Positions 57,277-60,647 of a stretch of DNA of 64,000 nucleotides are shown in pieces. The position numbers and the translations under genes were made by a program. Numbering within the stretch: the stretch's first letter is position 1; each line of letters starts with the position of its first letter. Source of the DNA: Burkholderiales bacterium RIFCSPLOWO2_02_FULL_57_36 (GTDB lineage: Bacteria > Pseudomonadota > Gammaproteobacteria > Burkholderiales > Burkholderiaceae_D). The stretch lies in the NCBI GenBank assembly GCA_001770855.1, contig MESE01000057.1, forward strand, positions 1 to 64,000, written 5' to 3'. The notes below the pieces were generated by a model that saw only the letters and a list, made by a program, of their open reading frames with translations, did not search any database and had not been told where the DNA came from.

Positions 57277-57474
57277 ATGAGCTTACCAAAACCCGCAAGC
57301 AAATGGACGCGCCTGGCATCAGGATTGTTGGTAGTGGCAACCCTGAAAGGATGCGGCAGCGCAGACGCTTTACCCTCTCCCGTTCCCGCCGAGCCGACGC
57401 GGGCCCAAACCGACTCACGTTCCGCCGACTCCGTTACGTACGGCAATCGCTTCAACTCTCCTCTTCTTTATTAG
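57277..57474 (+). CDS. Possible small lipoprotein
   Basis: A 65-codon frame with a basic start, a hydrophobic stretch (LASGLLVVATLKGCGS) and a Cys that could be lipidated, though Lys at -2 is unusual for a lipobox. The mature part is short and Pro/Ser-rich. AGGA lies 8 nt ahead of the ATG. It may be an entericidin-like small lipoprotein or spurious. Confidence 0.4.
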   Translation: MSLPKPASKWTRLASGLLVVATLKGCGSADALPSPVPAEPTRAQTDSRSADSVTYGNRFNSPLLY

Positions 57475-57669
57475 GATAGGTGCATATTCGAATATTTATA
57501 CTTGGAGACAATTCGGCTCGCACCCATACGCTGCTGCAAGAGCTGGTGCGATCAGTTAAGAGGTTCCATCATGACTTACCTGGATCTCTTGCGGCATGTG
57601 TGTCATTTACAGATATGATTAAGTATCTTCTCAAAATAAAAAGCCGGCAATTCTACTGACGGTAAAACA

Positions 57670-58830
57670 TTGGATAACACTCAGAAAACCGACATCGATT
57701 CTGCAACCAGCACCATGCAGAAATCATCTTCTCTCTGGTATCACCGCGATTTCGCGATGACCGGTGTCGCCATCGTGTTGGTGGGTGCGACTGTGCTGGT
57801 TCTGCGCGCATACTTACCAAGGTGGGTTTTCGGAGGACACAATCCTGTCAACTGGTTGTGGCCTGTCACAATTTTTGCGTCTTACGTAGTACTCGGATTG
57901 GTGGCGCTGATCAGCGTGCGCGCCATCGACATATGGTTCAACCGGCGCACGATAGTGCCGCTATGGAGACCTATCGTCGTAGGCACAGTGGCAATTGTGA
58001 TGGCTACCGGCACAACCACAGGCATTATGATCGCCCCATTGTCCCGCTTGATTCTCGGTAGGGACCCAAGTTTGATCGGCATGTGGACTTTGAGCAGCGT
58101 TCTTGCTACCACCGCTTATATATGTTTCCTTCTGAACCGAGCTTCCGTAGCACAGCGTGAACAGGCATTTCGTTTACAGCTTGAAGCAGGCCTGCTTGGC
58201 ACCGCCCTGGCCGAGGCCGAGCTATCGACGCTGGAAGCGCAGATTGAACCTCATTTTTTATTCAACACATTGGCGCATGTAAAACGGCAATACCGAATCA
58301 ATGCAGCAGCCGCAGATCAGATGCTCGCGGCATTGATCGATTATCTTGATCGTGCGTTACCCGCCTTGAAGCGCACCGATTGGACCCTCGGGGATGAACT
58401 GGACCTGATTCAGGTTTATCTCGAAATCCTGACCCAACGGTTCGGAGCGCGGTTCCGTTTTTCAATCAGCGCGTTCGACAAAGATCGGACGATATGTCTT
58501 CCCGCACTGACCGTGGTGACGCTGGTCGAAAATGCCATACGTCATGGGCTTGGACCAAAATCCGGCAGCGGTTTTGTATCGATCCATGCAGAAAGTGAAA
58601 ATGCAGTACTCGTAATCGAAGTATGCGATGACGGCGTAGGGCTTCGCCAATCTTCAGGCAGCGGCCTCGGACTCGCGTCAATACGTGCCCGGCTGCAGCT
58701 TACGTTCGGCGATATGGCAGTGCTGAAAGTCGAGCCGAGGCATCCTGACGGCGTTCGCTCATCTATCCGGATTCCAACGGCCGTCTGCCATGCGAACGTT
58801 ACTCAAACAGAACTGGTTATCAGTCAATAG
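57670..58830 (+). CDS. LytS-like membrane sensor histidine kinase
   Basis: A 386-residue membrane kinase. Four hydrophobic helices (about 31-47, 64-82, 103-125, 138-155) with short loops are followed by the His_kinase domain, with the phospho-acceptor H195 in QIEPHFLFNTL. The N box LVENAIRHGLG (N288), G1 box CDDGVGL (D320/D321) and G2 box GSGLGLASIRARL make a full HATPase domain. The start is a TTG at 57670; an ATG at 57715 is possible. It precedes a degenerate relative and a LytTR regulator, so it should phosphorylate that regulator. Confidence 0.88.
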   Translation: MDNTQKTDIDSATSTMQKSSSLWYHRDFAMTGVAIVLVGATVLVLRAYLPRWVFGGHNPVNWLWPVTIFASYVVLGLVALISVRAIDIWFNRRTIVPLWRPIVVGTVAIVMATGTTTGIMIAPLSRLILGRDPSLIGMWTLSSVLATTAYICFLLNRASVAQREQAFRLQLEAGLLGTALAEAELSTLEAQIEPHFLFNTLAHVKRQYRINAAAADQMLAALIDYLDRALPALKRTDWTLGDELDLIQVYLEILTQRFGARFRFSISAFDKDRTICLPALTVVTLVENAIRHGLGPKSGSGFVSIHAESENAVLVIEVCDDGVGLRQSSGSGLGLASIRARLQLTFGDMAVLKVEPRHPDGVRSSIRIPTAVCHANVTQTELVISQ

Positions 58831-59899
58831 CGACGGCAATATGGATAGCCTCTTCGAACGCATAGTTCGCCGCGTGCGCACGGTCGGATTGCCGTCTCTA
58901 CTGTGGGCAATGGTCGGCAGCGTCGCAGGCATGGTATGGGCGCTCCCAATTTTAGCGCCCATGATCCAGGAGTATGGGTATCTGCTCTGGTTATTCCGTG
59001 GAATATTTTCTTCATTTGTCAGTGCCTTTATTCTTATCCTCGCACTTTGCATCGGTGCGAGCAACGGCACGGACATGGCACAGCGTCCGATACGGTTTCT
59101 GCTGGCATTGATGATTGGTGCGATGTGCGCAACCGCAGCAATCTGGGGCATTGACGTCGGCATAGGAATAAAATCGCCTTTTTCATTGGCCGGCAGACTG
59201 ATGAATAGCTGGCTCACCATTTTGGTTTTCGGCGGCGTGTTCGGCTGGGCGGCCGTTCTGAGTATGCGCTACACCGAAGATCAAGGCAGATTGGCAATGT
59301 TGCTAGGGCGACGCGCCATACTTTCCCGGCAGTTGGCGCAATCGCGCCTGTTAACGGCGCGTGCTCAGATTGACCCGGAGCTGGTCGTGCGCGTATTGAA
59401 TAATGTACGTATCCGTTATCGTTCGTGCCCTCCAGACGCGGTTGCACTGCTGGACCGACTTATAGAGTTCTTGCGGTTGGCGATGAATCGAACACGCGCA
59501 CCACAAGTGACATTTGCCACTGAGTTGGCGCTATTACGTGCCTATCTCATATTGCGCCAATCCGAAACCGGGACAGTTATCCACTTGCAAAACAAGCATG
59601 AGGTAGATGGATCACAGCGACACAAGTTGATCACCATCCCATTGGTTCTGATAGCAAAATGCATAATGGAGGAAATACCTCTAAAAAAATCAGATCAGAT
59701 AACATTTCATCTTGAGGTGAACAACACGCACATCGTTGTCGATTTATATACCGGTGATACAAGCATTTCTGAGGACAGCATGGCTCGGGTACGCCACGGC
59801 CTGCGGGCGTTGCCTGGGAATGGCGAGGAGTTGGATATACTCCATTATTCGAGCGGTTTTGGAGGCAATCGGTATGTGGTCCATGCAGCGACTGTCTGA
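58790..59899 (+). CDS. Degenerate paralogue of the LytS-like kinase (likely pseudokinase)
   Basis: A 369-residue membrane protein with four helices near residues 36-55, 66-90, 103-125 and 141-158, then a cytoplasmic part that aligns to the upstream kinase: QIDPELVVRVLNNVRIRY against QIEPHFLFNTLAHVKRQY. The phospho-acceptor His becomes E197. The N box LVENAIRHG becomes LIAKCIMEE, losing the Asn, and the G1 DDGVG becomes TGDTS. It therefore cannot be an active histidine kinase by the usual mechanism, but the frame is intact. It overlaps the kinase by 41 bp and the regulator by 26 bp. ATG at 58841 is an alternative start. Confidence 0.82.
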   Translation: MRTLLKQNWLSVNSDGNMDSLFERIVRRVRTVGLPSLLWAMVGSVAGMVWALPILAPMIQEYGYLLWLFRGIFSSFVSAFILILALCIGASNGTDMAQRPIRFLLALMIGAMCATAAIWGIDVGIGIKSPFSLAGRLMNSWLTILVFGGVFGWAAVLSMRYTEDQGRLAMLLGRRAILSRQLAQSRLLTARAQIDPELVVRVLNNVRIRYRSCPPDAVALLDRLIEFLRLAMNRTRAPQVTFATELALLRAYLILRQSETGTVIHLQNKHEVDGSQRHKLITIPLVLIAKCIMEEIPLKKSDQITFHLEVNNTHIVVDLYTGDTSISEDSMARVRHGLRALPGNGEELDILHYSSGFGGNRYVVHAATV

Positions 59900-60647
59900 A
59901 ACTCGGCCCACCGCGCTGATCGTGGAAGACGAGCCCGCGCTGTGCGATGAGTTGCATGAAGCATTGCGCACTCTATGGCCGGAGCTTCATATTGTTGCGA
60001 TGGCTCAAAATGGGCTTGAGGCGCTACGGAAAATTACGGAATACCGGCCCGATATCATTTTTCTGGATATTCAAATCCCGGAGCCCAATGGACTTGATGT
60101 TGCCCGCTTTATTGGCGACCGCTGTCATGTCGTGTTTGTAACGGCGTACGATGCGCATGCCGTCGATGCATTCGAAAACGGTGCGGTGGATTACATACTG
60201 AAGCCGTTCAGTGACAAACGTCTCGCGGTGACCGTCCAGCGACTCAAGAAAAAACTGGCGCACTCCCCACCCGATCTGGTTAGCCTGGTTGACCAACTGC
60301 AAGAACCTGGAGCGCGCTCCCGGCATTTGCGATGGATCACCGCTGCGGTTGGAAAATCGTTACGCATGATTATGATTGATGAAGTTGTTTTTTTTCAGTC
60401 CGATCAAAAATATACGCGGGTGGCGCTTGCAGGCTCTGAAGTGTTGATCAAAAAATCGCTGAAGGAATTGCTGACCGGACTCGATCCGGAACAGTTCTGG
60501 CAAATTCATCGCTCTACTGTTGTCAACACACTGGAAATCTCCTCGATCGAACCCAACATCGCTGGACAATTGACGGTGAGATTGAAAAACCGTCGAGAAC
60601 AGTTGGCAGTGTCCGAGTCGTTCGTCAAGCGTTTCCGGCAAATGTGA
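59874..60647 (+). CDS. LytTR-family response regulator
   Basis: A 257-residue regulator with a receiver domain at residues 13-125 (LIVEDEP, phospho-acceptor D65 in IIFLDIQIPEPNG, and the lysine in YILKPF) and a C-terminal LytTR DNA-binding domain (about 155-257: VFFQSDQKYTRVAL and IHRSTVVNTLEISSIEP). The ATG at 59874 has GGAGG ahead of it and overlaps the previous gene. LytTR sites were not identified. Confidence 0.93.
   Translation: MWSMQRLSETRPTALIVEDEPALCDELHEALRTLWPELHIVAMAQNGLEALRKITEYRPDIIFLDIQIPEPNGLDVARFIGDRCHVVFVTAYDAHAVDAFENGAVDYILKPFSDKRLAVTVQRLKKKLAHSPPDLVSLVDQLQEPGARSRHLRWITAAVGKSLRMIMIDEVVFFQSDQKYTRVALAGSEVLIKKSLKELLTGLDPEQFWQIHRSTVVNTLEISSIEPNIAGQLTVRLKNRREQLAVSESFVKRFRQM

Follow-up and report, generated by a model that had tools for sequence, protein, structure and literature searches.

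Most histidine kinases are homodimers, and whether such a dimer needs the His site and the ATPase domain of each subunit is usually probed with engineered mixed dimers. Standard LytS/LytTR systems are two-component systems, with one kinase and one regulator (PMC5552118). Departures from the one-kinase design have been described in other groups. In the FasBCA system of group A Streptococcus, a FasB-FasC heterodimer has been shown by two-hybrid assays; FasC is a proposed pseudokinase whose CA domain is dispensable, this domain being supplied by FasB, while its phospho-acceptor His (H246) is kept and required (PMC12675982). In DivL-CckA (Caulobacter) and RetS-GacS (Pseudomonas), an inactive or modulatory histidine kinase homolog controls the active kinase by direct contact (PMC9491836, PMC12189002). 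In Corynebacterium glutamicum, a variant of ChrS without its CA domain still affects signaling through a kinase that is its paralog; heterodimerization occurs between native ChrS and HrrS but was not seen for the truncated ChrS in two-hybrid assays (PMC9491836).

The operon described here lies in the window, i.e., the whole stretch of 64,000 nucleotides that was analyzed, and comprises three intact and overlapping open reading frames (ORFs), referred to below as HK, pseudoHK, and RR:

57670..58830, + strand: HK gene, active LytS-type sensor histidine kinase (Pfam, AF2 model)
58790..59899, + strand: pseudoHK gene, predicted pseudo-histidine kinase of 369 aa (Pfam, BLASTP, Foldseek)
59874..60647, + strand: RR gene, LytTR-type response regulator with a receiver and a LytTR DNA-binding domain (Pfam)
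58790..58830, + strand: overlap of 41 nt between the HK and pseudoHK genes (ORF coordinates)

These coordinates bear out the intact second gene and the gene overlaps reported by the first-pass annotation, and the 41-nt overlap suggests that translation of HK and pseudoHK is coupled. The start of HK is ambiguous, since position 57670 is a TTG and the ATG at 57715 fits the nearest relative better; RR probably starts at the ATG at 59874 (giving MWS...), which matches the nearest relative, whose RR is 78% identical to that of the window, with 59883 as the alternative. Pfam assigned HK to His_kinase (PF06580, 6.6e-18) and HATPase_c (4.3e-7) and RR to Response_reg (9e-21) and LytTR (2e-22). For pseudoHK, Pfam gave a match to PF06580 (1.3e-7, above the curated cutoff) and none to HATPase_c; the profile search thus placed it in the kinase's own family and not in an unrelated one, the outcome that the first-pass annotation had named as refuting its proposal.

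As in BtsS/BtsR, YpdA/YpdB, and LytSR, a PF06580 kinase with a multi-pass membrane part is encoded together with a LytTR response regulator. However, those systems have no second, His-less kinase paralog, while in the window pseudoHK is located between HK and RR. The operon is, hence, a variant of the LytS/LytTR systems rather than a standard member, because it has the kinase and the LytTR regulator but not the composition of one kinase and one regulator. The layout had been called atypical from the sequence alone, in agreement with our survey, in which kinases lacking such a partner sit with their regulator only.

HK and pseudoHK are paralogs, with a BLASTP E value (3e-10) that is not expected by chance. 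The window HK has the H-box QIEPHFLFN (with H195), the N-box LVENAIRHG, the G1 box DDGVG, and also the G2 box. In pseudoHK, the place of the H-box is taken by QIDPELVVR, where D195-P196-E197 replaces E-P-H, and the N-box Asn, G1, and G2 are all missing in the HMM alignment. Two substitutions proposed earlier, Glu for the phospho-acceptor His (E197, in A-Q-I-D-P-E, versus H195 of HK) and the loss of the G1 glycines, were thus recovered. The third, a Lys at the position of the N-box Asn, has to be corrected, since in the BLAST alignment it is a Glu (I-M-E-E) that faces this residue of HK; the Asn is absent either way.

The AF2 models, single-chain predictions of moderate confidence from alignments of five sequences (pLDDT of 71 for HK and 73 for pseudoHK), consist in both cases of about four transmembrane helices, a DHp hairpin (DHp-like in pseudoHK), and a CA domain, which in pseudoHK is a CA-like alpha/beta domain with shorter helices than in HK. 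The best PDB match of both models with Foldseek was the kinase domain of GanS (6swk), with E values of 6.5e-11 (HK) and 1.8e-5 (pseudoHK). At the level of sequence profiles against the PDB, HK also matched GanS, while no kinase was found with pseudoHK. As modeled, pseudoHK retains a CA-like fold although its ATP-binding motifs are gone. A chance resemblance to kinases was ruled out by the agreement of Pfam, BLAST, and Foldseek. From its residues, we consider pseudoHK a histidine pseudokinase, that is, a kinase homolog without the phospho-acceptor His or the ATP-binding motifs and predicted to be inactive.

The three-gene module was found in at least 34 operons from 31 genomes, belonging to at least five families of a single order (Burkholderiales). 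These counts are lower bounds from sampled genomes and a survey with sequence profiles: at least 7 of 246 genomes in the family of the window (f1), 12 of 67 in f19 (with 15 operons), 9 of 71 in f10, 2 of 28 in f22, and 1 of 4 in f6. Outside the family of the window, the module is carried by genomes G056, G172, G174, and G415, by many more in the family of G415, and by additional members of the families of G174 and G056. Named members include Massilia glaciei B448-2, Massilia sp. CF038, Massilia sp. H-1 (a noisy assembly), and two groundwater Burkholderiales MAGs. The presence of the three-gene layout in relatives, one of the checks proposed at first, thus extends to at least five families, which rules out an independent and recent decay in the genome of the window only. 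Within f1, the distribution is patchy, and the HK/RR lineage as a whole can therefore do without the module.

Used as the sole query, the second protein mostly retrieves ordinary kinases because these are better conserved, and a scan of the genome contigs with this single query gave no match. We used positional inspection instead, together with a pseudoHK profile built from the alignment of the f1 members. When 369 genomes of the class were searched (E ≤ 1e-12), only weaker matches came up beyond the window, and the three inspected were ordinary His-bearing kinases.

The phospho-acceptor His is replaced in all the second proteins (34 of 34) by E, D, Q, R, T, or A, and the Asn of the FLF-N motif that follows it is replaced in almost all of them; their partner HKs, where the sequence is readable and complete, keep the His, the N-box, G1, and G2. 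The RR gene is present in every operon. The genes are arranged as HK-pseudoHK-RR in all families but f10, whose operons run RR-HK-pseudoHK, so that HK and pseudoHK stay adjacent even when RR takes the first position. Both genes overlap in 19 of the 21 related pairs measured, mostly by 4 nt, and in G1005 and G1021 they form a single ORF of 744 or 745 aa in which PF06580 is found twice.

The phylogenetic tree of the kinases (103 rows, 24 of them partner HKs) clustered the partner HKs in one part, with 2 label changes versus 22 in shuffles; a more careful tree gave 3 versus 21, and a single clade of partner HKs was not rejected (p-AU 0.44). In a tree of the DHp region, the 21 pseudoHKs formed one group (1 change, SH-aLRT 94), separate from a group of the partner HKs (SH-aLRT 92); this grouping became weaker yet was kept when the H-box was masked (2 and 3 changes). 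The module regulators clustered as well, with 3 changes, one of which corresponds to locus L244, entered as nonmodule. Because the alignment is short and some pseudoHK branches are long, these trees make a single ancient origin of the module no more than likely. We also found, in G800 (L246:2635-5807), a tandem of two nearly identical LytS kinases, both His bearing, before one LytTR regulator; such an undegenerated tandem may parallel the initial stage of the module.

One account of a kinase copy without catalytic residues is a duplicate that has no function and is decaying, and a few data go in this direction. The remnant of the CA domain is relaxed (dN/dS up to 0.77), the second gene of G899 (L249:2525-3762, a two-contig genome) is split by a frameshift next to intact HK and RR genes, either a real loss or a sequencing error, and that of G989, a noisy assembly, is broken at several points. 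These two genomes are the exceptions to an expectation that otherwise stood, namely that the second gene would not be randomly lost or frameshifted in relatives. Its frame is intact in at least five families, the overlap with HK is conserved, and there are HK-pseudoHK fusions. In close pairs, few in number and analyzed by a simple method, dN/dS was 0.20 to 0.41 for pseudoHK and 0.18 to 0.28 for HK, and the intervals for pseudoHK stayed below 0.55. A functionless duplicate is therefore largely refuted and very improbable. A sequencing frameshift or a pseudogene was ruled out by the intact frames and a dN/dS well below 1.

Selection is not uniform along pseudoHK. The dN/dS values were 0.10 to 0.36 for the linker and DHp, 0.29 to 0.42 for the transmembrane region, and 0.31 to 0.77 for the CA remnant, and the CA domain has been entirely lost in pseudoHKs of different lineages (G056, G172, G174, and, in the family of the window, L242 and L245). 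Thus, pseudoHK is under purifying selection that is strongest in DHp and weakest in an ATPase domain that is decaying and has been repeatedly deleted. With the DHp and transmembrane parts constrained and the CA domain relaxed or lost, the retained function must sit in the membrane and DHp parts. DHp is the site of kinase dimerization and of contact with the regulator. RocA and LiaF provide examples of proteins that modulate their kinases. Along the latter lines, pseudoHK could be a ligand-binding accessory protein that acts through its membrane part, its DHp-like helices serving only as a coiled-coil contact. The purifying selection on the transmembrane region and the repeated loss of the CA domain would fit such a role, but DHp is more conserved than the transmembrane part, beyond the needs of a bare coiled coil, and we consider this explanation improbable.

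The constraint on DHp, which also binds receivers, lends itself to another explanation. As the most constrained part of a protein encoded in every case with an RR gene, it could belong to a separate homodimeric membrane sensor, unmixed with the kinase, whose DHp-like helices bind the receiver of the LytTR regulator, or this regulator in its phosphorylated form, and which acts as a decoy, a scaffold, or a phosphatase. However, the fusion with HK and the adjacency to it where RR has moved tie pseudoHK to the kinase, and the candidate phosphatase residues (the His and the Asn of FLF-N) are replaced in almost all pseudoHKs. This homodimer seems unlikely too, if a little less so than the accessory protein.

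The constraint on DHp, the decay of the CA domain, the cotranslation, the adjacency to HK, and the fusions are therefore best explained by an HK:pseudoHK heterodimer, in which the dead copy is probably a working half of a two-part sensor. HK would form an asymmetric sensor with its cotranslated paralog, joined through the DHp helices and the membrane domains of both proteins; the active HK would then phosphorylate the LytTR regulator. The dead subunit would add a membrane sensor of its own and set the kinase/phosphatase state of the active one, its ATPase domain being dispensable and in decay. We infer the heterodimer, the sensing role, and the direction of control, and give this asymmetric sensor, with a dead subunit that senses or sets the output of the kinase, a probability of roughly 0.6. 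A stricter version, which we hold more tentatively and at somewhat less than even odds, is an obligate and vertically inherited asymmetric kinase, in which each signaling dimer combines a catalytic subunit that bears the His with a dedicated subunit that lacks both His and ATPase. If true, such sensors would by design possess only one site of phosphorylation and one catalytic domain each.

The nearest described system is FasBCA, which likewise has two membrane proteins resembling sensor kinases and one regulator per operon. Nevertheless, FasC keeps its His, whereas this residue is missing in the 34 pseudoHKs; in FasBCA, the His and the CA domain are needed from different subunits, whereas here HK keeps both and pseudoHK is without both. 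The likeness would be one of design, ancestry apart. DivL-CckA and RetS-GacS belong to other kinase families and differ in domain makeup from the HK/pseudoHK module. In the reports cited above, neither pair is described as sharing an operon with a single LytTR regulator, while here the pair is cotranslated and sometimes fused. The ChrS variant is a laboratory-evolved frameshift in which the His is kept, unlike the naturally conserved His-less partner of this module. In the open-access literature on pseudokinases with LytTR regulators, we found no report of this module.

The module represents a natural pair of a live and a dead kinase that has persisted for long in evolution; some of its forms lack the CA domain of the dead half, and others are fused. 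Because nature has kept such pairs, subunit roles, cis versus trans phosphorylation, and the signal input of pseudo-histidine kinases can be tested directly in environmental bacteria, Massilia glaciei among them.

Upstream of HK in the window (57277-57659), there are a 65-aa lipoprotein-like start and a 59-aa ORF, neither with a Pfam match, and no direct repeats resembling LytTR operators were found just upstream of the operon. In four of six relatives from the family of the window, the operon adjoins a serine hydrolase of the PF00144 (beta-lactamase-like) family (L270:7024-8238, L267:2509-3807, L269:3415-4677, and L268:2787-3742), immediately upstream and codirectional in three of the four; it may be a regulated target or a signal-related partner gene. 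The hydrolase is absent from the window, and a decayed remnant of it just upstream of the operon received no support from tblastn. In G172, a small cupin-like ORF is located between the LytTR regulator and pseudoHK, and there is an in-frame TAG near the N terminus of RR (L084:5174-6038), either real or an assembly error. Lastly, Massilia glaciei and Massilia sp. H-1 carry a gene for a gag-asp/retropepsin-like aspartyl protease near the operon (L266:2-787 and L268:6565-7312).
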